Assembly (NCBI RefSeq): GCF_043290135.1
Contig: NW_027464588.1
Span: 3,857,501-3,921,500, forward strand
Origin: Rhipicephalus microplus
Taxonomy: Eukaryota > Arthropoda > Arachnida > Ixodida > Ixodidae
Length of the DNA: 64,000 nt
Direction: 5' to 3'
Notes under the pieces: generated by a model
What the model saw: the letters and a program-made list of their open reading frames with translations, nothing else
The model's database searches: none
Told to the model about the DNA's origin: nothing
Program-made: the position numbers and the translations under genes
Part shown: positions 1-61,858 of the stretch, in pieces
How the letters are laid out: every line of letters starts with the position of its first letter
How positions within the stretch are numbered: position 1 is the first letter of the stretch

Positions 1-386
1 CATGATTACATGCCACAGCCGAGGCGCCAAAATATTTCGACGTAACGTGGTGCAAGTGCTCACCGGCGTTTATTTCGTTGCGTCACTTCTGCGCTACCAC
101 GCCAGGCGCCGGTCCTGCCCTATACTGGCAGACGTGCGCTGCGCTGCCTCTCTTTGATGCATGCGCGTTTCAGCTCGTCCGGCGTCCCTCTGTAACGAAA
201 ACAGGGAGACGCAGTGCTGCCTGGGTCACGCATCGGCGCGAAATGCAGCATGTCATATTTCACTGTCATTTACGGCATCAATTATTTCCACCTCGTAATG
301 TTGGGCTGATTTTAAAGTGGCATATCAAAATTTCTTATTTGTGGTTCGTATATCATCGATTTCTACTGTACGTGCAATGTGCCGAT
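1..386 (-). mobile_element. TM147 element copy A, cut by the window edge
   Basis: This is the GC-rich module and left arm of the TM147 repeat in reverse orientation. Positions 60-260 match the GC-rich module of the other copies (GCCAGGCGCCGGTCCTGCC and ACGCATCGGCGCGAAATGC are shared). Positions 265-386 are the left arm, ending at the run of T that is the reverse of the A-run before TTGGCAGATCCC in other copies. The module joins the arm directly, so one or more monomers are missing here. It appears to interrupt the LINE reading frame that continues at 387. It is non-coding; open frames here are only GC-rich chance frames. Confidence 0.7.
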
Positions 387-507
387 TTTTTTTTGTTGCT
401 TCGAACGCTTGGAGGCACCGTCAATGGAGGTTATAGATAGGGCACGTGTATACAAGTTTGGTGTGTTGGAAGGTTTTGTATGCGATTACCCTTATGGTCG
501 GTGAAGT
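387..507 (-). pseudogene. LINE RT C-terminal fragment
   Basis: Read on the minus strand, this encodes SPTIRVIAYKTFQHTKLVYT, the thumb-region signature seen after the RT core of CR1/Jockey LINEs (usually ...RxxAYKTLVRPxLEYA...WDPH). It continues the frame that stops at 2622 on the far side of the LTR element, sharing the tetranucleotide ACTT at both junctions. It ends where TM147-A begins. It is not functional. Confidence 0.72.
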
Positions 508-5343: not shown

Positions 5344-5594
5344 GCGTTGAAGTTGAAGGAACTGCTAAGTGCACATGGTAAAAACATTTTTCTAGGCAAA
5401 CAAATGAACAGAAAATATTGGCAGATCCCATGTACAGTGGGAATCAATGATATGCGAAGCACGAATAAGAATTGTTGATATGTCACTTTGAAATAAGCTC
5501 AACATCAAGAGGTGAAGATAAATGATGCCATAAATGACTTTCATGTCACGATTATTATGTTTGGATGTGTCGTTTACCTTCATTATCTTTACAC

Positions 5595-7030
5595 GTCACG
5601 TGGTACCAATTTTAGTAAATGTGGAGCTTGCAAAATGCCCGCAAGCATGCTATGAGCGTGGTATATTGTCATGTTCTTGCATGACACGCGTGTCATGATT
5701 ATCTTGTTTGCATCAGTGTTATACTTTTGTCATTCATTGACGTCACGTAACACCAAATTTTGTATATGTGGAACTAGCGAAATGGCCTCGTGTGTATCAT
5801 GAAGGGCCGATGTACTCCAACGGGACGTTGACGTGCGCGCACGCTGGGCACACTGACGCTTCGTTAGCAAAACGGGAGCACCGTATAGTCTGACGCCAGG
5901 CGTGACTAGCATTAATCGGCGCGCCTCGATGGCAACCGGCGCGAAATGCGACATGTTGAATTTTGCGCCGATGCCTTATCCAGACAACACTGCGTCTCCC
6001 TCTTTTCGTGACGGAGGAATGTCGAATGAGCTGAAACGAGCATGCGTCAAAGGAACGCAGCGTGGCGCGCGTCTGCCAGTGTATGGCAGGACCGGTGCCT
6101 GGCATGGCAATGCCGGCGTTACGCGACCAAATAAACGCCGGCGAGCACACGCACCGCGTCACGTCGAAATGTATTTGGCGCCTTGTCTGTGGCATGTAGT
6201 CATGTTATCACATCACTCGCATCTCATGACGATCATGTTTGCATTATTCACATACCTTCATCTATTGATGTCGCGTAATACCAAATTAGGCATACGTGAA
6301 GCTGCCGAAACGGCCGCGAGCGCATTGTCAGTGTAGCATGTAGTCATCATGTTCTCACATGACACGCATGTCGTGATTATCACGTTTAGATATGCCATTT
6401 ACCTATGTCGTCTGTTCGCGTTGCCTAATACCGAGTTGGTACATGTGAAGCTAGCAAAACGGCCACGAGCGCATCATGAGCGTAGCATGTAGTCATGTTG
6501 TTACATAACAAGCATCTCATGTTTATCAAGTTTGCACTAGTATCATACCTTCATCATTCATTCACGTTCTGTAATACCGAATTTCGTCTAAGTGAAGCTA
6601 CCTAAAGGCCGCCAGTGCATCATGAATGTGGCATGTGGTCATGTTGTTACATGACACGCATTTAATTATTATTATGTTTGCACCAGTCACATACCTTCGT
6701 CATCCATTCACGTACTGTAATACCAAATTTGGTATTTGTGACGCTAGCGAAACATCCGTGAGCGCATCATGAGCTTAGCATGTCAGTCATGTTGTTACAT
6801 AACACGCACGTCATGATTTTCATCATAGGGTCTGTCGCTTGTCTTCACCATGCAATCATGCCATCCCATACCAGTTTTTCAACATGCCATGTTAACGAAA
6901 CTACCGCAAGAGCTGCAGGACCATGAAATGAAAATTATGCCATTCATGACATACATGTCAAGATTTTCATGTTATGATTAGACAAAAAAGTTTTCATACA
7001 GTCATGTTATGCCATAGCAAGGTTGGTGTC
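5595..7030 (+). repeat. Tandem array of about 147-bp monomers
   Basis: The monomer landmark ACCAAATTTGG or its decayed form occurs at about 5605, 5752, 6280, 6430, 6576, 6722, 6870 and 7016. Spacings are 147, 150, 146, 146, 148 and 146, apart from one 528-bp gap that holds the GC-rich module. Each monomer also carries CATGTAGTCATGTTGTTACATGA-like sequence with short inverted CATGT/ACATG pairs. Divergence between monomers is substantial, as in an old array. Confidence 0.85.
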
Positions 7031-7075
7031 GATACTATTATTGAAACGGCCAGGAAAGCTAAAAGTCGTAGGCAG

Positions 7076-7108
7076 ACAGACAGACAGACAGACACACCGA
7101 TAGATCTA

Positions 7109-7175
<67 letters not shown>

Positions 7176-7200
7176 GTAGATAGATAGATAGATAGATAGA
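7076..7200 (+). repeat. CAGA, TA and GATA microsatellite
   Basis: The tract runs through five CAGA units, an AT run of about 40 bp and then GATA units. The same GATA tract stands just before the right arm in copies B, D and E (and in C, where it ends the copy), so it is part of the element rather than a chance microsatellite. Confidence 0.95.
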
Positions 7201-7447
7201 AGCAAGGGCCAACGTTGGATTCATTCAAGTATCTGGCCTGGCAACCACCTTCGTCAACTGATACAGCAGGGGCGGAGGCCCTACTAAAGCATCACTTCGA
7301 CAGACTGCTACTGGGTCGTGTCACCGCTGCCGACATGAGCTTACCTCGCCTTCTCGCGCAGGTTAGTTACAGAACCCTGAATCTTGCTACCGATGTTCAA
7401 ACCGATGTTTGATAGCGGTGTGATGCCCCGACTGCCTAGTTCAGTTT

Positions 7448-7762
7448 TTGAAAAAGTGCATGTGTTTGCGTGCGCTTCGCTCTCACGTCTTTGATGTATT
7501 GCTCTTACTGCTCTCCAGTGACGTGGATTTAAACCCTGGCCCAGGTCAGGCTACAAGAAGTAAAAGCGATAGTGCTAGTCTTGAAGGGATTTGTGAAATT
7601 GTGAGCAGGCTAGAGCAGGGCCAGACACGTTTTTTCGCTGAACTAGAAGAAGTGAGGAAGCAGCAGTCTGCTTTTGCTGCTTCTCTTCAGGAACTGCAGA
7701 GTACCGTTGCTGCTCTTCACAGCAACTTTCTTACAATGAAAGAAAGCCCTCAGGAGCGTTAA
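7448..7762 (+). pseudogene. N-terminal CR1 ORF with 2A-like motif and coiled coil
   Basis: The 104-residue frame has a hydrophobic Leu-rich run followed by DVDLNPGP at residues about 25-32 (7520-7543), matching the 2A consensus D-V/I-E-x-N-P-G-P except Asp for Glu at the third position. 2A peptides cause the ribosome to skip the Gly-Pro bond and are known from several non-LTR retrotransposons. Residues about 45-100 (SRLEQGQTRFFAELEEVRKQ and on) look like a coiled coil, as in LINE ORF1 proteins. A stop follows at 7760. The RT that should follow is deleted, so it is a remnant. Activity of the variant motif is not known. Confidence 0.6.
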
Positions 7763-7809
7763 AGAATACCTTTATAATACGAACGTACTATATAGTATAA
7801 GTTTGTTCA

Positions 7810-8280
7810 TTACTCGAGTACACTTGCGCAGCATGGGACCCTGACACCATCTGTCTTGTAAATAAACTTGAGCGTATCCAGAATCGCGCAGCCAGGTTTG
7901 TCTCTGGTAATTGCAACTATGAAAGCACCATCTCAATAATTAAAGACAACCTTGGCTGGAAAACGCTAGCCCAACGCCCCTAGGCAACAAAGTTGGAACT
8001 TTTTTCACATTTACTCTGATCTCACAGGTATTAACAAAAACTTGTACATTTTTCCCCTCACTTCATCTCTATGCGTCCTGATCATGACTGTAAGGTACTT
8101 AAAACGCGATGCCGCACAACAGTGTTTCATTATTCATTCTTTGCTCACACCTCCACGCTTTGGAAGAGACTTGCTAATGGTATAGCAGATTGTAAAACAC
8201 TTTCCCAGTTCCAACTGTTTTTACATTCAAATTTTCCATATGTCTCCTCTATGTTGCATACACCGCTTTGTTATTAGCTC
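7810..8280 (+). pseudogene. CR1 RT C-terminal remnant
   Basis: Frames here read AWDPDTICLVNKLERIQNRA (about 7830-7890) and, after a stop and shift, TTVFHYSFFAHTSTLWKRLA near 8119-8178. Both are hallmarks of the C-terminus of CR1-like ORF2. A stop occurs at LGWKTLAQRP then a shift. This is the 3' part of the 7201-8384 LINE. Confidence 0.7.
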
Positions 8281-8384
8281 ATTCTTTAATCTTTGTCTTT
8301 GTGTAAACATATGTACTGTTACGGGATTAATCCTGTTACCCCCCTGCAATAATGCCCTCGTGGCGCTGCAGGTAATTTTATAAA

Positions 8385-8432
8385 TAGATAGATAGATAGA
8401 TAGATAGATAGACAGACAGATAGATAGATAGA
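8385..8432 (+). repeat. GATA microsatellite, right part
   Basis: Continuation of the TM147-B GATA tract beyond the LINE insert. It leads directly into CGCTCATAGTCGACGAAG, the right arm. Confidence 0.9.
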
Positions 8433-8474
8433 TACGCTCATAGTCGACGAAGCTCTCTAAGAAATGCTTCGCAT

Positions 8475-8889
8475 ATATAAGTCATCGGTGCCAGCTGACG
8501 TAATATACTTCACACACTGTTCGAAGCAGACAGTCAGTGAGCTGATGGTGAGCTCATAAAGGGGACTATTAGTGTCCGGGCATTGAGAGAAGGACCAACT
8601 TTATTTACACAGTGTAAAAAGGGACTTTATTAAAATATGTGCCCTTTACAACACGATTTTAGGGGAAGCCTTTTATAAAGTTTTTTTGTGTTGCTTTTTT
8701 ATTATTCATTCAGTCAATCTTAATAGGTTAATCCAATACAAAAAAGCCTTTTACATGCTATGATGAAGCCACAGTTTGCTTGAAACCACAAAATAAATTA
8801 AATTTGATTTGGAGCTGTTTTAGAGATTGTCCTAAAGGAGGGGATTGCAGACGAGTCGTAAGTCAAAGTGAAGTTGCGGTATGGTGAAT
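8475..8889. other. No recognised gene
   Basis: AT-rich sequence with several AATAAA-like runs and no frame I recognise. It lies between TM147-B and the readable part of the Gypsy-D pol frame, so it may be decayed Gypsy or LINE sequence. Confidence 0.5.
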
Positions 8890-18530: not shown

Positions 18531-18577
<47 letters not shown>

Positions 18578-19078
18578 CCTGCCTACGCCTTTTAGCCCTC
18601 CTGGCCATTTTGATAATGGTATCGATGACAATCTTGCTATTGTATAACATGTCTCTATGAAAAACATATTTGACTAGTCGTAACATTAAAATCATAACAT
18701 GTATGTCATTAATGTCATGATTTACATTTCACGGTCCTGCAGCTCTTGTGGTGGTTTCGTTCACATGGCATTGTCAAAACTGGTACGGTATGACATGATT
18801 GCATGGCGAACACAGGCGACAGAGCCTAACATGAAAATAATGACATGCATATCATGTAACAACATGCCTACATGCCATGCTCATGATGCTCTCGCAGCCG
18901 TTTCGCTGCGTCACTTATACCAAATCTGATATTACAATATGTGAATGGATGACGAAGGTATGTGACTGGTGTAAACATGATAATCATGAGATGCGTGTCA
19001 TGTAACAACATGACTACTTGTCATACACATGATGCACTGGTCGCTTTTGCTAGCATCACATATAGCAAGAGAGAGAGA

Positions 19079-19164
19079 GAGAGATAAAGATGCAAGGAAA
19101 GGCAGGGAGGTTAACCAGACGCACATTCGGTTTGCTACCCTGCACTGGGGAAGGAATAAAGGGG
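19079..19164 (-). mobile_element. 86-bp LINE 3' tail in TM147-C
   Basis: AGCAA flanks the insert at 19074-19078 and 19165-19169, a 5-bp target duplication, and removing it restores a normal TM147 monomer. On the minus strand it ends ATCTTTATCTCTCTCTC, a CT-repeat tail typical of tick I-clade-like LINEs. It is a severely 5'-truncated insertion. I recognise the sequence GGTTAACCTCCCTGCCTTTC as common in tick genomes by memory only. Confidence 0.8.
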
Positions 19165-19900
19165 AGCAAATTTAGTATTAAAGTACGCGAACGTGTGACG
19201 AAGGTGTGACTGGTGCAATTATGATAATCTTGAGGTGCGTGTCATGTAACACCATGACTACATGCCAAGCTCATGATGCGCTGGTGGTCGTTCCTCTAGC
19301 TTCAGTTATACCATATTGGGTATTACGGGACGTGAATAGATAACGAAGGCTTAATACTGGTGCAAACATGCTGAACATCAGATGCGTTCCATGTAACAAC
19401 TTGACTACATGCTACGCTCATAACGCGCTCGCGGCCGTTTCGCCAGCTTCACATGTACCTAACTCGGTATTACGCGACGCGAATGGACGACATAGATAAA
19501 TGACACATCCAAGTATAATAATCACGACATGCGTGTCATGTAACAACATGACTACATGCCACTCTCATGATGCGCTCGCGGCCGTTTCGCTAGCTTCACA
19601 TATGCCAATTTCGGTATTACGTGACGCCAATGAATGTCAAAGTTATGTGACTGGTGAAAACATGATAATCATCAGATCCGTGTCATGTGATAACATGATT
19701 ACATGCCACAGTCAAGGCGCCAATACTGTTCGACGTGACGTGGGGCACGTGTTCGCCGGCGTTGCTACGCCAGGCGCCGGTCCTGCCATATACTCGCAGG
19801 CGGGCACTGGTGCTGCGTTGTTTTGACACATGCACGTTTTTGTGTGTCCGGCATCCCTCCGTCACGAAAAGAGGCAGACGCAGGGCTGTCTGGGTATTGT

Positions 19901-19938
19901 ATCGGCGTGAAATGCAGCAAGTCGAATTTCACGCCGAT
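19901..19938. other. Conserved hairpin in the TM147 GC-rich module (copy C)
   Basis: Arms 19901-19913 and 19926-19938 pair perfectly over 13 bp (ATCGGCGTGAAAT with ATTTCACGCCGAT) around a 12-nt loop. Equivalent hairpins stand at 5938-5969 in copy B and 51974-52005 in copy E with different but mostly pairing bases. Confidence 0.8.
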
Positions 19939-20309
19939 TGCCGCCAGGCCGCGCCCACGGACGCTGGTTCCGCCCGATGTCAGACTGTAGAGGGCTCGCG
20001 TTTTGCTAACGTAGCGTCGCTGCGCCCAGCGTGTGCGTGCGTCAACACTACATTGGAGTATATTTGGCCCTTCATGATGCACTCGCGGCCGTTTCGCTAG
20101 CTCCACACATACTAAATTTGGTATCACGCGACGTGAATAAATGACGGAGGTAAACCACACATCCAAACATTATAATTGTGAACCGGAAATAATGTATGGC
20201 ATCATTTACCTACATCTTGTTACGTTGTGCTGATTTTGAAGTCACATAACATTTCTCAATCATGCTTCGCATACCACCGATTCCCACTGTACTTGAGATC
20301 TGCCAATGT

Positions 20310-26992: not shown

Positions 26993-27055
26993 GGCTAGCA
27001 AGGACATAGGAAAAGTACTACTGACCCCAATTCACACGTCACCCAATACGTAAAA
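26993..27055 (+). pseudogene. Gypsy-D integrase finger, middle piece
   Basis: The plus frame reads LART, stop, EKYY, stop, PQFTRHPIR, equivalent to RTxxRIxEKYYWPxLTxxVxxYV of the Gypsy integrase finger. It continues across TM147-D into KTCRECQ at 28850. TAAAA at 27051-27055 is the target duplication of TM147-D. Confidence 0.8.
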
Positions 27056-28714
27056 AATTGGCATCATCCCACGTACAGTGGAAATCGATGATATTGCGAA
27101 GCACGAATAGGAAATGTTGATGTGTCACATTATAATCACCACAACGTTACGAGTTGGAGGTAAACGATGCCGTTAATGACTTCCGTGTCAAGTTAATCAT
27201 GTTTGAATGTGTTGTTTACCTTTGTAATCTATTCACGTCACGTGATACCAAAGTTAGAATATGTTGAGCTAGTGAAACGGCCGCGAGCACGCTATGAGCA
27301 TGATATGTTGCCATAATCTTACATAACACGCGTGTCAGGAGAATCATGTTTGCACCAGTCATATACTGCGTCATTCACTGACATCACGTAACACCAAATT
27401 TGGTATATGTAGAGCTAGAGAAACGGCCGCAAGCGCATCATGAAGGGCCCAATATACTTCAATTTAGCGTTGACGCGCACGCACCTAGGGCACAGCGACG
27501 CCACGTTAGCAAAACGCGAGCACTCTATAGTCTGACGCCAGGCGCGACCAGCGTTCATTGGCGCGGCCCAACGGCAACCAGCGCGAAATGCGACATGCTG
27601 CATTTCGTGCCGATGCGTTACCCTGAAAATACTGCGTCTCCCTTTTTTTATGGCGGAGGGATGCCGGACGCACTAAAACGCACATGCGTCAAAGGGACGC
27701 AACAAGGCACGCCTGCGAGCATATGGCGGGACCGGTGCCTGGCGTGGCAGTGCCGGCATGACGGGACGAAATGAACGCCGGCGAAAAAGCGCACCGCATC
27801 ACGTCGCAATGTAATGGCAGCTTGACTGTGGCGTGTAGTCATGTTCTCACATGACACGCATCTCGTGATAATCATGTTTTTACCAGTCACATACATTCGT
27901 CATCCATTGGCGTCATGTAATACCAAATTTGGCATATGTGAAGCTCCCGAACGGGCCGTGAGCGCATCATTTGTGTGGCCTGTAGTGATGTTGTTACATG
28001 ACACGCACATGTCGCGATTATCATGTTTGGATGGGTCATTTACCTATGTCCTCCGGTCGCGTCCCGTAATACCGAGTTTGGTACAAGTGAAGCTAGCGAA
28101 ACGGCTGCCAGCGCATCATGAGCGTGGCTTGTACTCATGTTGTTTCATGATGCGATCTCACAATTACATGTTACCACCAGTCACATACCTTCACATAAAA
28201 CTGTGAAGTGCCGCTGTCTGTCAGTGCCGCTGTCTGTCTCCTTCTTTTTCTTGTCTCTCGTTTTTGGCGCTGTTTTTTATGTGAATCATGTCGTACCAAC
28301 TCGCCCAAGCAACCACGTTAGCTACTCACATACCTTCGTCATTCATTCACGTACTGTAACACCACATTTGGTATATGTGACGCCAGCGAAACGGCCGTGA
28401 GCGCTATATGAGCGTGGCATGTAGTCATGCTGTTTCATGACCCGCATACCATGATTTTTATGTTAAGGTCTGTCGCTTGTGTTCGTCATGCAATCATGCC
28501 ATACCATACAAGTTTTTCAACATTCCATGCAAACAAAACCACCGCAAGAGTGGCAGGACAATGAAATGTAAATCATGACATTCATAACATCCACGTTACA
28601 TTTTCATGTTATGACCAGTCAAATATGTTCAACATACAGTCATGTTATGCCATACTAAGTCTGGTATCGATACCATTATCGAAACATCCAGGAGGGCTAG
28701 AAGTTGTAGGCAGC

Positions 28715-28746
<32 letters not shown>

Positions 28747-28849
28747 CAGATAGATAGATAGACAGATAAATAGATAGATAGATAGATATATAGATAGATA
28801 GATAGATACGCTCAAAGTTGCCGAAGTTCGCTAAGAATTGCTTCGCTAT
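27056..28849 (+). mobile_element. TM147 element copy D, complete with 5-bp target duplication
   Basis: Left arm AATTGGCATCATCCCACGTAC, GATATTGCGAAGCACGA, a monomer array, GC-rich module (about 27440-27830), more monomers to about 28690, a GATA tract (28711-28808) and right arm CTAAGAATTGCTTCGCTAT. TAAAA flanks it at 27051-27055 and 28850-28854. Joining at one TAAAA restores the codons for IRKTCRECQ of the Gypsy-D integrase, so both ends are fixed. Length is 1.8 kb. No protein-coding gene is credible. It is the best reference copy. Confidence 0.85.
28711..28808 (+). repeat. GATA microsatellite of TM147-D
   Basis: Interrupted GATA/GACA units immediately before the right arm CGCTCAAAGTTGCCGAAG. 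Confidence 0.95.
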
Positions 28850-29770
28850 TAAAACCTGCCGAGAGTGTCAGTGATGGAAGTCACCGCGAACCATGCCAGC
28901 TAGACTACTACAAGCCATGGAGCGGCCTCCATGACCGTTACAGCATATCGGCATAGACTGGAACGATTTCCGACGTCGAATTCAGGAAAAAAATGGATTG
29001 TCGTAGCTTCTGATTACCTCAGCCGCTACGCCGAAACAAAGGTGCTGTCTAAAGGCAGTGCAACGAAGGTACCAATCATTCACAGAGAACATCGTCCTGC
29101 ATCATGGTGAACCAGAGATTCTCATTAGCGACAGAGGTACGGCCTTCACTGCAGAGTTACCTCATGTGATCTTGGTACACAGTCAGACAAGTCTCCACCG
29201 GACGACACAGTGCCACCCAAAAACCAACAGTCTCACCGAGTGGCTAAAGAAGACCATCGCCGACATGCTGGCTGTGTATGTCGACGTCAAACTCCAATTA
29301 CGTGAGTGGGATGCCATCTTTCCGTACATGACTTTCGAACTTGACACGGCAGTGCAGGAGACGATGCAGATGTCACCATACTAATTAGTCTACGAAAGGC
29401 AGCCGTCGAGGACGCTCGACGGTGTGCTGCCAGATGTAGCTGACGAAGAAAATCTCGATGTGACTGTCAACCATTAGCGCGCTGTACTAGCACGACAACT
29501 ATCCCGCCTCTAGATTAAGAACGAACACACAATCCATAATCGCCTTTACAACCTTCGACGACGCTTCGCGGAATACCAATCGGTGAATGTGTTTGGGTGG
29601 GGACACGGATACGCCAAGCTGAAGTGAGTGAAAAACTTGTGCGACGGTACTTTAAAAGGTATAGAGTACTTTGACCTCTCAGCTACTCGACTACGAGGTT
29701 GTACCAGACGGCATCACGAGCCCTGAACTCGTTCAAGTGCCTGAAGCCGTATTACGCACGTTCACGAAAC
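28850..29770 (+). pseudogene. Gypsy-D integrase core and C-terminus
   Basis: The frame reads KTCRECQ (finger Cys pair), a stop, then the core: WIVVASDYLSRYAETKVLS, HHGEPEILISDRGTAFTAEL (second catalytic Asp), NSLTEWLKKTIADMLAVYVD (Glu box, normally NGLTERxNKT) and FELDTAVQETMQMSPY. Later parts (ELVYERQ-equivalent, LDGVLPDVADEENLDVT, VWVGTRIRQ, LDYEVVPDGIT) are readable with shifts. The first catalytic Asp segment is altered to GIDWNDFRRR. The longest open frame is 29058-29384. It is dead. Confidence 0.88.
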
Positions 29771-47157: not shown

Positions 47158-47204
47158 TTTTAGATGCGAAGCATTTCTTAGCAAACTTTGGCGACGTTGA
47201 GCGT

Positions 47205-47369
<165 letters not shown>

Positions 47370-48532
47370 GCTGCCTACGACTGTTAGCTCTCGTGGCTGT
47401 TTCGATAATGGTATCGATACATAACTAGGTATGACATATCAAGACTATAAAAAAGAACATATTAGACTAGTAATAACATAAAAATTATGACATGGATGTC
47501 ATGAATGTCATGATTCACATTTCATGGTCCTGCAGCTCATGTAGTGGTATCGTTCACATGGTATGTTGCAAAAATGGTACGTATGACATGATTGCATGGC
47601 GGATACAAGTGACATACCCTAAAATGAAAATTACGATATGCTTGCCTTGTAACAACATGACTACATGGCACGCTCATCATGCGCTCTCGGTCATTTCGCT
47701 AACGTCACATATATCAAATTTGGTATCACGTTACGTGAATAAATTGCGAAGGTAAATAACTGCTGCAAACATGGTAATCATGAGATGCATATCATGTAAC
47801 AACATGACTACATGCCACGCTCATGATGTGCTGGTGGTCAGTTCGATAGCTTCACTTATACGAAATTTGGTATTACGGGACGTGAATGAATGAAAAAGAT
47901 GTGAGCCTGATGCAGACATGATAAACATGAGATGCGTGTCATGTAACAACATGGCTACATGCTGCGCTCACGATGCGCTCGCGGCTGTTTTGCTGGCTTC
48001 ACATGTACCAAAATCAGTATTACGCGACGCGAACGGACGACATAGGTAAATTGCACATCGAAACATGATATTCACGACATGCGTGTCACGTAACAAGTTA
48101 ACTTCATGCCACACTGATGATGCGTTCGCAGCCGTTTCGCTAGCTTCACATATGCTGAACTCGGTATTACGGGACGCCAATGGATGACAAAAGTATGTGA
48201 TTGGGGCAAAATTCGTAATCATGAGATACGTGCCATGTGAAAACATGGCTACATGCCACAGTCAAGGTACCAATGCATTTCGACGTGAACGCAGTGCGCG
48301 TGCTCGCGGCGTTCATTTCGTCGCGTCACGCTGGCGTCGCCACGCCAGGCACTGATACTCGCAGACGCGCGCCGCGCTGCGTTACTTTTACGCATGCGCG
48401 TTTCAGCGCGTCCGGTGTCCCTCCGTCCAGAGAAGCGGGAGACACAGTGTTGTCTGGATAACGCATCGGCATGGAGTAGTGTTACTCTATGGCATCGGCG
48501 CGAAATGCAGGATGGCACATTTTGTGCCAGGT

Positions 48533-50894
48533 AGGTAGGTAATCAACTTTATTGATTCACGAAGGAATCATTTGAGGGGGGGTGTGGTTGGGGAAGTGGA
48601 ATCAGGATGACGACGAGCCCTCGGGCCGCTCTAGGTGGCCGGACACTGCTGTGCTTCGGCGACCCGTCTGGCCCAGCTCACTGTCCGGAGCTGTAAACCC
48701 GGTTGCGAGCTGCGCAGAGCAGCCTCCCATCGCTCCTGGTGTTCTGACCCTTGCCACGGAGGCTTGGGTTTGTTTGGACAATTCATAAATATGTGCTGAA
48801 AGTCGGCTCTGGTGCTAGGACATAAGTTGCAATGAGGCGAGGTTTCACCATGTGTAAAAAGAGAGAGAAGAAAAGGAGTCGTTACTGTGGTCGTTTGAAG
48901 TCTGCGCCACAAAGCCTGGTCACTTTTGGAGAGAGATTTATGTGGCGGGGGATACGTTAGGCGGGAATTTCGGTAAAATAGCGTGATATCATGATCGCTG
49001 AAGAGTCGATCCCTGGCACATTGAAGCGAAGGCAGGTCGCTGTGAGCCCGGTTCGCGAGTGCTCGGGCTTGGGTGTGAGCGGCCGTGTTGCCTGGGTGTC
49101 CACAGTGCGCAGGGACCCAGAGGAGGATGATGAGGCGATCAGGCGGAAGAGATGATTCAAGAATTTGAGCAGCCGGAGAATGAATTCGGAAAGTGGCGAA
49201 ATTACGAATTGCAGTTTTTGAATCAGAAACAATATACTCAGCGGAGGAGTGAACAATGGCTAAAGCAATTGCCGCTTCCTCTGCTTCCAGGGATTCTGTC
49301 GAATTTTGAAGGGACGCACTAGCGACCAGTTTTTGAAATCCATCTACGACGGCTACCGCGAAAGCTCGATGATCTACATATTCGGCCGCGTCTACATAGA
49401 CTGCGGGAGAATTAGGAGGGAAGCGCTTCTGAAGGGACTTGGCTCTGGCTTCCCGTCGCGCCCGATTATGTTCTGGGTGAGTATTTTTGGGGAGTGGCGG
49501 AATTAATAGGTTGCTGATAACAGTGACGGGAACTGCGTGCGTGGCCGTGGTGTGACCAGGAACGTTGATTCCAAGTCGGTGCAGGAGTACCTGTCCTGAT
49601 TCTGAGAGTGATAGTCTTTGATATTGGCTGAAAAGATGCGCCTCTACAAGCTCTCCCAGAGTGTTGTGCACCCCAAGTTGAAGTAGTTTATCCGTGGCTG
49701 TTCATTTAGGGAGATGGAGCGCAGTTTTATAGGCATCACGAATGAGTCTGTTAAGTTGCTCGGTCTCTGTAAGTGAGAGATAGAGGTAGGGGATAGAATA
49801 GATAATTCTGCATAGGCAAAAGGCCTGTATGAGGTGGCGTGTGTCTGCTTCCCTCATGCCGCGATGACGATTGGATATGCGCTTAATGAGGGAAGCTGTA
49901 TTTTGAACTGAGGAGCGGATTAACTTTATTGTGTCAGCGTTCGAGCCATTTTCGGAAATATTAAGGCCTAAAATATTCATTTTATTGACCCTGCGAATAG
50001 GGGTGTCATCAAGCATGACTTGAATGTGACATGTATCTTGCTTTTTAAAGTCAATTACTAGGAGTTCCGATTTAGCCGCCGAGCAGGTGAGCCCAATATT
50101 GTTGGCGTGTTTAACAACAATGTCAGCGGCCAACTGAAGCTTCGATTCGATTTCGCCATGGTTGCCAGTATTGACCCAGATGGTGATGTCATCCGCGTAC
50201 AAGGAGTGATTGATAGAAGAAAGTTTGGCAAGTTCCCGCGCTAACGGTATGAGAGTAACGTTAAAAAGGAACGGGGACAAAACCGATCCCTGGGGCGTTC
50301 CCTTGCTACCTAGCATGAAGGGATCGGTTTTGAAAGTGCCCAACTGTAGGCAGACGGACCTATTGCTGAGAAAGGCAGAGACATACCTGTGCGTACGAGA
50401 GCCTACGTTTAGTTCACTAAGAGATTGTAAAATTGAGGAGTGAGAAACGTTATCAAAAGCCTTAGTCAGGTCCAATGCAAGGATGGCTCTGGTGATGTGT
50501 GGAAAAGTAGGATTTAGCACGTCCTCCTTAAGCTGCAGCATGACATCCTGAGTGGAAAGTCCCGCTCGGAAGCCGTACATGGTGGAGGTAAACAGTTTTT
50601 CTTGTTCCATGTAGCGATTAAGACGATTGAGAATTACATGCTCCATCACTTTTCCAGTACATGAGGTAAGAGAGATCGGTCTCAAATTATTAAGGTCTAA
50701 CGGCTTATTATGTTTGGGTATGAAAGTCACCTTAGCTGACTTCCATTCCTGGGGCAGCGTGCCCTGCTCCCATTGTTGATTTATGTAATCGGTAAGAGCT
50801 GCCACTGACTTGGAGTCTAAATTTCGGAGTGTTTTATTAGTAATTTCATCTAGTCCTGGAGCAGATGTGGTGCGAAGTTTGCTCAGGGCAGCCC
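48533..50894 (-). mobile_element. Young I-clade LINE, 5'-truncated, 13-bp target duplication
   Basis: The LINE is flanked by identical TTTTGTGCCAGGT at 48520-48532 and 50895-50907. It holds the RT core to RNase H end of ORF2 and a 98-bp 3' UTR ending CAATAAAGTTGATTACCTACCT (polyadenylation-like AATAAA and TACC repeats). The 5' end lies within the RT domain, the usual result of incomplete target-primed reverse transcription. The empty site is visible in the neighbouring duplicate at 51998-52010. One stop interrupts otherwise open coding sequence, so it is the youngest element here. Confidence 0.95.
48631..50894 (-). pseudogene. I-clade ORF2: RT and RNase H, one in-frame stop
   Basis: Same frame throughout: RT (50894-49705) with APGLDEITNKTLRNLD, FIPKHNKP, LRPISLTSCTGKVMEHVILN, FRAGLSTQDVMLQL, ALDLTKAFDNVSHSSIL (motif A), GTPQGSVLSPFLFNVTLIPL, LYADDITIW (catalytic YADD, about residue 260 of the open frame) and CSAAKSELL. 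A TGA at 49704-49702 follows HLPK. After it come VHNTLGELVEAHLFSQYQRL, RNase H with AVYVDAAEYVDH, SLEAEEAAIALAIVHSSAEY, VSDSKTAIRNFATF and LLWVPAHCGHPGNTAAH, then CNLCPSTRADFQHIFMNCPN (CCHC finger), ending at 48631. Catalytic residues look intact. An upstream ATG at 50976 lies in flanking TM147 sequence, so the first 27 codons of that open frame are not LINE. Confidence 0.95.
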
Positions 50895-51973
50895 TTTTGT
50901 GCCAGGTGCGAGCAACATCCGTCGGAGGGGCACGGACGCTGGTGGCGCCTGGCATCAGATTATAATGTGCTGTCATGAATGTCGTGATTCACATTCATGG
51001 TCCTGCAGCTCATGTAGTGGTACTGTTCACATGGTATGCTGCAAAACTGGTACGTATGACATGATTGCATGGCGGATACAAATGACAGACCCTAAAATGA
51101 AAATCACGATATGCTTGCCTTGTAACAACATGACTACATGGCACGCTCGTCATCATGCGCTCTCGGTCATTTCGCTAACGTCTCATATATCATATTTGGT
51201 ATTACGTTACGTGAATAAATTGCGAAGGTAAATAACTGGTGCAAACATGGTAATCATGAGATGCGTATCATGTAACAACATGACTACATGCCACGCTCAT
51301 GATGTGCTGGCGGTCGGTTTGATAGCTTCACTTATACGAAATTTGGTATTAAGGTACCTGAATGAATGAAGAAGGTGTGAGCCTGATGCAGACATGATGA
51401 ACCTGAGATGCGTGTCATGTAACAACATGGCTACATGCTACGCTCATGATGCGCTCGCGGCTGTTTTGCTGGCTTCACATGTACCTAAATCAGTATTACG
51501 CGACGTGAACGGACGACATAGGTAAATTACACATCGAAACATGATATTCACGACATGCGTGTCATGTAACAAGTTAACTACAAGCCTCACTGATGATGCC
51601 CTCGCAGCCGTTTCGCTAGCTTCACATATGCCGAATTTGGTATTACGGGATGCCAATGGATGACAAATGTATGTGATTGGGGCAAAATTCATAATCCTGA
51701 GACGCGTGTGATGTGAAAACATGGCTACATGCCAGAGTCAAGGCGCCAATGCATTTCGACGTGAACGCCGTGCGCGTGCTCGCTGGTGTTCATTTCGTCG
51801 CGTCACGCTGGCGTTGACGCGCCAGGCACTGATACTCGCAGACGCGCGCCGCGCTGCGTTGCTTTAATGCATGCGCGTTTCAGCGCGTCCGGTGTACCTC
51901 CGTCACGAGAAGAGGGAGACAAACTGTTGTCTGGGTAACGCATCGGCATGGAGTAGTGTTACTCTATGGCATC

Positions 51974-52005
51974 GGCACGAAATGCAGGATGTCATATTTT
52001 GTGCC
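51974..52005. other. GC-module hairpin in TM147-E, empty target of the LINE
   Basis: GGCACGAAAT (51974-51983) and ATTTTGTGCC (51996-52005) pair with one G-T wobble. In the sister duplicate the 3' arm of this hairpin (from 48519) is where the LINE inserted. Confidence 0.75.
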
Positions 52006-52402
52006 AGGCGCGAGCAACGTCCGTTGGAGTGGCACGGACGCGGGGGCGCCTGGCGTCAGGCTATAATGTGCTCCTGTTTTGCTAACATAGCGTCGCTGTG
52101 CCCAGCGTGCACGCACGTTAACGTTACATTGGTAAGAACATGACAACAAACTAGGCTCATAGCGTGCTCGCAGCCGTTTCGCTAGCTCCACATATATTAA
52201 ATTTGGTATCACTCGACGTGAATAGATGACGAAGGTAAGCGACACATCCAAACATGATAGCCATAAATTAGAAGTCATGTACGGCATTATTTACGTCCAC
52301 CTCGTAACGTTGTGCTGAATTTAAAATGACATATGAAGATTTCTTTTTCATGCTTCACATATCATCGATTCCCAGTGTACTTGGGATTTGCCAATTTTTT
52401 TA

Positions 52403-59270: not shown

Positions 59271-60689
59271 CCAGGAGAAACGCTTTCACACGCGATGCTA
59301 CACGGCACGTAGGACGTAAATAACGCTTTTTGTAGCTGCACACCAAAGATTGAATTATGAATTGTTATTAGGAGCACCCATTACATAGCATATGTTAACA
59401 GTTGGTCCTAAGAGGGCCAATTATTCATTGAGTATAGACCTCGATACTGTCCATGAGTACAGGCGGTTTGACTAACTTGAAATCTATTTAATGCTGGCCA
59501 TTTGACTCGCCTGAAATGAAATTCGTCACTGATGCTGTTCATGTGGAGGCAATCACCAGGCACATTCCAAAGACTTACGTATAGGCCAACGAAACTGCCC
59601 CGCGAAAGCACACACGATTAAAAGTTTAGTTCTTTTATTGCATTAACAACGCTGCTTACGCTCCAAAAACTGTGTTAAAAAACAAGAATTTACGACATAC
59701 ACAAAATATGTATTTGCCACAAGTGCTTCAGAAACTTTATCACCCCGCAGCTACTAATTACAACTCACAAAATCACTTAGAAGGTATTAAAAACGCAATA
59801 AATTTAACGTGCTACAACAGCAATCTTACGCACAATAAACACACGAATGTACATAGTTGTTCGAACCTGTATAGAAATTTTTCTTCATGGAAACATGGAA
59901 ACGAACTCCAGCGCCGGTCGTCATCCCGGTGACACTCTTCATCAAAGTACTACAGTGGCGCCATAACTTGATTGTTCAACATCGACTTACTGCACTGGAG
60001 GACTCACTCACACCACTTAAACATCACAACATCTGGGCCAATGTTCAACACCCATACAACTCTCCGACACCTCTCGTTCGGATCCTTCTCGGTTTCGCAA
60101 ACATTCTACGTGATTCTACTACGCGTAGCATGTGCCAGGGCCGCAGCCAGGAGAAAGGGCTTCGTCTCGCTGATTCGTCCAGCGTTGTTAGGTTCGCATG
60201 CGAAAACAGTCACAATCAAAAGAGGCTCCGCATCGATTTCTCAGTTTCTTCTCATCTAGGCTGGTTGGCTGTAGCATGTTTCGCTGTCGCATGGTAAGAG
60301 CACACGCCCTGGGTGCCTTTTTATACTTGCTTTCTTGCTGCGTTGCGTGCGCTCGTAAAGAAGACTTTTGATAGGGTGGCGTTGGTGCGCGTCTGCTTGA
60401 GCGCTCGTCTGTGACAATGAATAAGTGCTATTTCACAAATATTACACATTCTTGTACGCTTCTTGAAACTGTAGATCGCATGGCATTCGTTTGTGCTTCA
60501 ATGTGGCGTCTTTGTTCGCGTTCGAGCTGCTCAGCGGCACACAACTACTTCGCGGCGTCACACCAATAAAAAAAAACCATCTGCCACACACGCGCGCACC
60601 AAAGAATCATACTCTATCACACGAAAAATGAGGCAAACTGCCCTCCCTCTCCCCACACACACACACACACACAATCGCACACATAGAAA
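59271..60689 (-). other. No gene; LTR-like features on the minus strand
   Basis: No recognised frame. On the minus strand TGTCACAGACGAGCGC (60418), TATAAAAAGGC (about 60340-60330), a possible primer-site-like TGGCGCCACTGTAG (about 59967-59954) and GCAATAAAAGAAC (about 59640) are arranged like parts of an LTR element, but no partner repeat exists in the window. A CA microsatellite lies at 60652-60673 before TM147-F. Confidence 0.35.
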
Positions 60690-61858
60690 GTTGGCAGATC
60701 CCACGTACAGTGGGAATCGATGATATGCGAAGCACGATTGAGAAATGTTGATATGCCACTTCAAAATCAGCGCAACGTTACGAGGTGAAAGTACATGCTG
60801 CCGTACATAACTTCCGTATCATGATTATTATGTTTGGATTTGTCGTTTACCTTTGCCATCTATTCACGTCACGTGACACCAAATTTAGTATATTCGGAGC
60901 TGGCAAAATGGCCGCGAGCAAGCTATGAGTGTGGTATGTTGTTTTGTTCTTACATGACATGCGTTTCAGAATTATCATGTTTGCGCAAGTCATATATTTA
61001 GGCATTCATTGACGACACGTAACAACTAATTTGATATATGTGTAGCTAGCAAAATGGCCGTGACCGCATCATGAAGGGCCCAATATACTCTAATGTAGCG
61101 TTCACACGCATGCACGCTGGGCACAGCGACCCAACGTTAGCAAAACGCGAGCCCTTTTAGGCTGACGCAAAGCACAACCGGCACGACCAGCGTCCGTCGA
61201 TGTGGCCCGACGGCAACCAGCTCGAAATGCGACATGCTGCATAACGCGCCAATGCGTTACCCAGAAAACAATGCTTCACCCTCTTTTTGTGATGGAGGGA
61301 CGCCGGACGCACTGAAACGCGCATGCGTCAGAGCAACCCTGCGCGGCGAGCGCCTGCCAGTACATGACACGACCGGCGCCTGGCGTGAACACGCTGGCGC
61401 GACGCGACGAAATGAACGCCGGTGAGCTCGCGCACCATGTCACGTTGGAATGTGATGGCGCCTTGACTGTGGCATGTAGTCATGTTCTCACATGACACAC
61501 ATCTCATTATTATCGTGTTTGCACCAGCCACATACATTCGTCATTCATTGACGTCACGTAGTACCAAGTTTGGCATATCTGAAGCTAGCACAGCGGCCTT
61601 GAGCGCATCATGAGTGTGGCATGTAGTCACGTTGTTACATGACACGCATTGTTTCATTATCATGTTTGGATATGTCACTTACCTATGTCGTCCGTTCGCG
61701 TCGCGCAATACCGAGTTTGGTACACGTTAAGCTAGCCAAGCAGCCGCGAGCGCATCGTGAGCGTAGCTTGTAGTCATGTTGTTACATGACACGCATCTCA
61801 AGTTTATCATGCTTGCACCAGTATCATACCTTCGTCATCTATTCAGGTCCCGTAATAC
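60690..61858 (+). mobile_element. TM147 element copy F, 3' truncated
   Basis: Left arm at 60690 (GTTGGCAGATCCCACGTACAG), GATATGCGAAGCACGA, a monomer, the GC-rich module (about 61070-61460) and three monomers. It stops at TCCCGTAATACTG within a monomer, without GATA tract or right arm. The next sequence is a Gypsy fragment. Confidence 0.8.

Follow-up and report, generated by a model that had tools for sequence, protein, structure and literature searches.

The modular repeat TM147, found in six copies in the window (the whole 64-kb stretch of Rhipicephalus microplus DNA analysed here), is almost certainly a high-copy family of HINEs, non-coding Helentron-associated elements, that would be moved in trans by a Helentron protein. 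The family is new; its kind is already known, namely a non-autonomous Helentron of the DINE-1/pearl type that inserts in T-runs. Literature listings, in a search outside which lay Repbase, supplements and most subscription journals, held no description of TM147. The word Helitron occurs nowhere in the available text of PMC3160391 and PMC12211944, and an exact scan of viral-contig and genome-contig collections for the TM147 5′ end gave no match.

A first-pass annotation had likened TM147 to DINE-1, Helentron and pearl elements. This was the correct lead, although its word 'analogous' was too weak, as TM147 belongs to that group by structure. The annotation also held that the mobilising enzyme could not be of Helitron type, an inference that fails because the target duplication on which it rested is itself unsupported.

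Anatomy, ends and abundance of TM147

The HINE layout is read on the strand opposite to that of the first-pass annotation (the minus strand for copy D). The earlier orientation was reversed, and what it called the left arm corresponds to the HINE 3′ end. In HINE orientation TM147, preceded by TT, runs from AAATGCGAAGCATTTCTTAGCGAACTTCGGCGACTTTGAGCG through (TATC)n, a module, monomers, a GC-rich module and two further monomers to TGCTTCGCATATCATCGATTCCCACTGTACGTGGGATCTGCCAATTTT. It thereby carries a palindromic 5′ subTIR, a TATC microsatellite, 147-bp core repeats, a 3′ subTIR, a 3′ hairpin and a terminal T-run, which together make up HINE anatomy. The features of copy D and of its junctions are as follows.

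27053..28850, minus: TM147 copy D, full length; its 3′ boundary lies within the T-run 27052-27057 and is not fixable to the base
28837..28850, minus: HINE 5′ end with palindromic 5′ subTIR (AATAGCGAAGCAAT in D; consensus AAATGCGAAGCATTT)
28716..28808: GATA/TATC microsatellite, by TRF
28468..28715, minus: 5′ unique module (Rmod), ~245 bp
27821..28467, minus: upstream block of 147-bp core monomers, with a local C/T-rich change at ~28207-28260
27444..27820, minus: GC-rich 377-bp module (family majority sequence: 65% GC)
27181..27443, minus: two diverged core monomers
27090..27103, minus: 3′ subTIR (TGCTTCGCAATATC in D; TGCTTCGCAT in the family)
27067..27084, minus: 3′ hairpin (TCCCAC-TGTAC-GTGGGA in the family), ~12 nt from the 3′ end
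28851..28854: host AAAA, four of the five target T/A, which with the element's T at 28850 reads TAAAA
27051..27057: host T plus an A-run common to element and host; the TAAAA of the first-pass annotation spans bases 1-5 of this stretch

A BLAST search of the window with copy D as query recovered the six copies with common modules that had been described before, and TRF confirmed the 147-bp monomers and the GATA tracts. The other five copies, with one insert, are:

1..387, plus: copy A, truncated by the edge of the window to its 3′ part
5416..8476, minus: copy B, split at ~7201-8379 by ~1.2 kb of other sequence
18532..20307, plus: copy C, 3′ end present and no 5′ end detected; begins in the TATC tract
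47162..52396, plus: copy E, with an internal duplication; 3′ boundary within the T-run 52395-52401
48532..50894, minus: LINE-like insert in the second GC module of E, with one in-frame YADD motif
60689..61858, minus: copy F, 3′ end present and 5′ half missing

Copy E, earlier taken as a single copy, is not a simple one: it contains an internal duplication (47497-48531 versus 50971-52008, 93%) in addition to the LINE-like insert, which is bounded by its own duplication, CCTGGCACAAAA (48520-48531 and 50895-50906). The truncated copies C and F both retain the 3′ terminus of the HINE and are without the 5′ one, a small sample (n=2). The sequence that splits copy B holds a frame reading DVDLNPGP at 7520-7543, which we take to resemble a 2A-type motif.

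The genome surveyed comprises 3.26 Gb in 1,202 contigs. A first look with copy D gave 28,870 candidates, 40 of which were scored, and ends were sampled from the window, 8 loci, 20 hit regions (some of them the same places) and 10 shorter regions. Among 34 copies with both ends, 11 were dropped as a refetched place or a segmental duplicate sharing the insertion site, leaving 23 non-redundant copies. All 23 have the same module order, local exceptions aside. Within the window these exceptions are E (duplicated and interrupted) and B (interrupted); elsewhere they are L002 (an inverted piece), L005 (~650 bp ahead of the TATC tract) and L020 (two microsatellites). TRF detected no microsatellite in L003, L006 and L037, and in L037 BLAST detected no 5′ arm either.

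For HINE-Mo of the predatory mite Metaseiulus occidentalis, the available part of PMC4067079 gives palindromic subTIRs of 12-15 bp, placed 2-4 nt inside the 5′ terminus and 38-60 bp inside the 3′ terminus. These elements also have a 3′ palindrome at a distance of 8-35 bp from that terminus, insert in T-rich targets and vary in their number of terminal Ts. The TM147 5′ junction has the consensus TT followed by AAATGCGAAGC, and its subTIR 10-mer ATGCGAAGCA begins directly after TT-AA, likewise within 2-4 nt of the 5′ terminus; it is exact in 12/23 copies, with one mismatch in 8/23 and two or three in 3/23. The 3′ subTIR TGCTTCGCAT, ~38 bp from the end and so inside the 38-60 bp range, has no mismatch in 22, one in 6 and two in 6 of the 34 non-redundant 3′ ends. 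With G-T pairs counted, all six pairs of the 3′ hairpin form in 19/34 ends, five in 11/34 and four in 4/34; at least five of six are thus present in 30/34, at a distance within 8-35 bp of the 3′ terminus. For the consensus hairpin the folding energy is -5.3 kcal/mol (z -2.6; 3/200 shuffles equally good); the 46-nt 5′ end folds no better than shuffles (z 0.01). Aligned, the 34 3′ ends are conserved until the T-run and vary past it.

By these published descriptions, TM147 and HINE-Mo share palindromic subTIRs, T-rich targets and the absence of target duplication; in both, the 5′ subTIR lies within a few nt of the terminus, the ~38 bp and ~12 bp of TM147 fall within the published 38-60 and 8-35, and some HINE-Mo elements also carry tandem repeats or microsatellites. 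TM147 differs in the 377-bp GC-rich module that splits its core repeats, and its exact inverted core of 10 bp is slightly below the 12-15 of the mite. Drosophila DINE-1, as summarized in the available text of the same paper, has subTIRs, a microsatellite, central repeats, a 3′ stem-loop and a TT target, as TM147 does; compared by description, its subTIRs are not palindromic whereas those of TM147 are. The oyster Cg_HINE/Pearl elements, according to the accessible portion of PMC7492417, combine mostly 4-nt microsatellites on the 5′ side with satellite-like core repeats (Pearl ~160 bp, Cg170) and a 3′ palindrome, again as in TM147. By the same description, their microsatellites are GTCY/GTCC/GTCK rather than TATC, and the GC-rich module is a feature of TM147.

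Other classes of element fit less well. By length, TM147 has no coding capacity (the longest ORF in D is 124 aa). Canonical Helitrons have 5′ TC, 3′ CTRR and A/T insertion; TM147 ends AAATGCG ... CCAATTTT, and D and E lie within T5 tracts. The 5-6 bp target duplication of cut-and-paste elements and MITEs is not found. Outermost inverted repeats are lacking in ends aligned by eye, the inverted match being subterminal on the 3′ side. A retroelement moving by TPRT was considered and rejected, since a poly-A tail is absent and the duplication unsupported.

The 40-base 5′ end has 2,481 genome matches at one mismatch or fewer and the 47-base 3′ end has 1,293, the reversed-pattern control giving 0 for each. 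Only 1/23 of the sampled 5′ ends and 5/34 of the 3′ ends lie within one mismatch (ungapped) of the search pattern, so copies should exceed these counts, with an estimated total from about ten thousand up to some tens of thousands, in a sample picked by similarity to D. That TM147 is mobile, as first proposed, was borne out: it is dispersed genome-wide with constant termini, and D and E sit inside other repeats that have uninterrupted paralogues. A satellite array left in place and only resembling an element, as the tandem 147-bp monomers might suggest, has practically no chance of being correct, being refuted by thousands of dispersed sites that share constant termini and by insertion in repeats with empty paralogues.

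The target site and the apparent duplication

The first-pass annotation had fixed the ends of D and E by interrupted Gypsy frames and read TAAAA (D) and TTTTAG (E) as target duplications. Insertion inside repeats whose paralogues match both sides was upheld; the Gypsy label is by eye, translations of the D flanks looking Gypsy integrase-like and those of the E flanks Gypsy gag-like. The letters of the duplications are indeed present, but the empty paralogues hold a single T5 (A5) tract.

For the D site, 12 of 40 listed matches were taken (1,455 first-look candidates), 11 of them besides D. An uninterrupted A5 is present in 8 of the 10 uninterrupted paralogues (L041, L043-L047, L049 and L050); L040 and L048 have diverged bases at the tract, and L042 holds another insertion. 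In D itself, one junction reads AAAAAA and the other T-AAAA; there the T belongs to the element, whose sequence on that strand finishes in CGCATTT, and the four A belong to the host. For the E site, 12 of 40 listed matches (1,555 candidates) gave 11 paralogues besides E, all empty: CCCC-TTTTT-AGC in 9/11, CCC-TTTTTT-AGG in one and CCCC-TTTTC-AGC in one. In E, CCCC-TTTT runs straight into AGATGCG, the start of the element, and the opposite junction reads TTTTTTT-AGC. Both cases are consistent with insertion into a T5 tract of which four Ts stayed 5′ of the element and one or more 3′ of it; the additional A in D and AG in E are TM147's own 5′ end, with no duplicated host base needed.

Across the 23 non-redundant insertions, the base past the T-run is equal on both sides in 9/23 (shuffled mean 9.2), two bases in 3/23 (2.0 shuffled, P 0.28) and three in none (0.26 shuffled); the longest common substring not made of T only averages 4.0 versus 3.8 in shuffles (P ~0.19, 300 shuffles). 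This verdict covers non-T bases, a T-only duplication being indistinguishable from terminal Ts, since a T-run forms both the target and the end of the element. In the 5′ flanks, T occupies position -1 in 21/23, -2 in 22/23, -3 in 16/23, -4 in 22/23 and -5 in 8/23, a TDTT-like four-base target signature with -5 unbiased, somewhat sharper than the published TT preference. Targets are T-rich with at least two Ts on each side and a variable T number, though not in every copy.

That TM147 is moved by a non-Helitron enzyme, whether a cut-and-paste transposase or LINE-type retrotransposition, and leaves a TAAAA-type duplication of 5-6 bp is therefore a very improbable reading. TAAAA and TTTTAG do stand literally on both sides of D and E, and T-rich targets like these resemble those of LINE endonucleases. 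However, the empty T5 sites would require that one T was lost from the same duplicate in both D and E, the base past the T-run matches at the shuffled rate only, a poly-A tail and outermost inverted repeats are missing, and the ends have HINE structure. The available text of PMC4067079 reports that the target is not modified, against some earlier studies, and that poly-T targets with variable terminal Ts complicate the analysis; the apparent TM147 duplication arose because this same problem applied here.

In one paralogue, L042, the T tract of the D site is occupied at the identical position by a second, shorter HINE. This HINE ends in the palindrome AGGAGCGAAGCTCCT, carries a microsatellite of the GTCC/ATCC type and in parts matches both non-coding flanks of the Helentron L064 (83, 78, 94 and 92% over 160, 104, 35 and 25 bases). 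Non-coding flank sequence is common to L064, H3, H5 and the L042 HINE, which by these matches is related to another Helentron of this genome (L064). Another similar copy in the window gave no empty site for D, as similarity stops ~100 bp short. Comparison of flanks among fetched loci yielded only L031, where the 3′ end of one TM147 directly abuts the 5′ module of a second one at its CTTTTAG tract, either a nested insertion or a tandem copy.

Helentrons of the same genome

A profile search with PF14214 (Helitron_like_N) gave at least 125 matches, 150 of 222 first-look candidates being scored, and matched 0/14 control genomes. L063 has two adjacent frames, which encode Rep (PF14214) and a PIF1 helicase (PF05970); the helicase carries an Exo_endo_phos domain at its C-terminus (PF03372, E 4.6e-8). 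This fusion of PIF1 with Exo_endo_phos, an AP-type endonuclease, is a Helentron hallmark, and on these domain assignments the Helentron enzyme class exists in the same genome as TM147. Such a protein (Rep nuclease, PIF1 helicase, AP-type endonuclease) would act on TM147 in trans, recognizing the 5′ subTIR end and the 3′ subTIR with its hairpin. One strand would be copied by rolling-circle replication and joined into a nick in a T-run, with no target sequence duplicated.

L063 defines the ends of a Helentron family, A (TTAAGTGTGAATACACTT ... GGGAGTTTTT), whose end layout is like that of TM147. These ends occur in 8 of 10 Helentron loci: both in H1, H2, H6, H7, H8 and H10, the 3′ end only in H4 and the 5′ end only in H9. 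H3 and H5 have no family A ends, and three further loci have one at the 5′ side. The ends of TM147 as a Helentron's own were found in 0 of the 15 Helentron loci examined (L063, L064, H1-H13). Exact 29-base TM147 5′ arms followed by four non-T bases, that is, without TATC, number only six, none of which lies near a listed PF14214 match by eye; partners that keep the TATC would escape this comparison.

TM147 may have a partner that is rare, has died out or bears different ends, or it may be served by family A acting beyond its own family. The last case, a variant of the best explanation in which the abundant family A moves TM147 despite its differing subTIR, appears rather unlikely. Its ends are the ones seen at L063, at 8/10 loci and at the 5′ side of three more, with the same palindromic layout and insertion without duplication; against this, its subTIR and hairpin sequences differ from those of TM147, while the HINE families in the accessible part of PMC4067079 are 95-98% identical to their autonomous partner.

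Family A Helentrons are nested in TM147 at 3 of the 10 loci, H7 (L077/L078), H10 (L083/L084) and H8 (L079/L080), as known from their end strips alone. With TM147 on both sides of the Helentron, H7, H8 and H10 had resembled an autonomous form of TM147. We rejected this reading on the junctions, which place family A Helentrons inside TM147 copies at two distinct positions. The empty site of H7 in TM147 is GGAGTAT^ATTGGG, with zero duplication, and that of H8 is CTAAATTT^GGTATC, with one G missing. H7 and H10 (3′ strips 98%, 5′ strips 94% identical) share their outer flank and so represent one insertion event, making two events with H8. That such a TM147-Helentron composite moves as a unit, a non-autonomous family regaining autonomy by capture, is improbable: because the outer flanks are shared, H7 and H10 show duplication of the composite, not its transposition.

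Implications for HINEs and their Helentrons

The classification of TM147 as a HINE very probably moved by a Helentron protein identifies a high-copy repeat family in a large genome. It also provides a case in which T-tract targets, combined with an element whose first base is A, produced a false claim of target duplication. At least two Helentron landings inside TM147 have generated composites whose outer ends are those of TM147 and whose core is a Helentron's. With HINEs lying beside Helentrons that encode an endonuclease, this genome makes HINE/Helentron partnerships testable, and likewise the spread of satellite-like 147-bp repeats.
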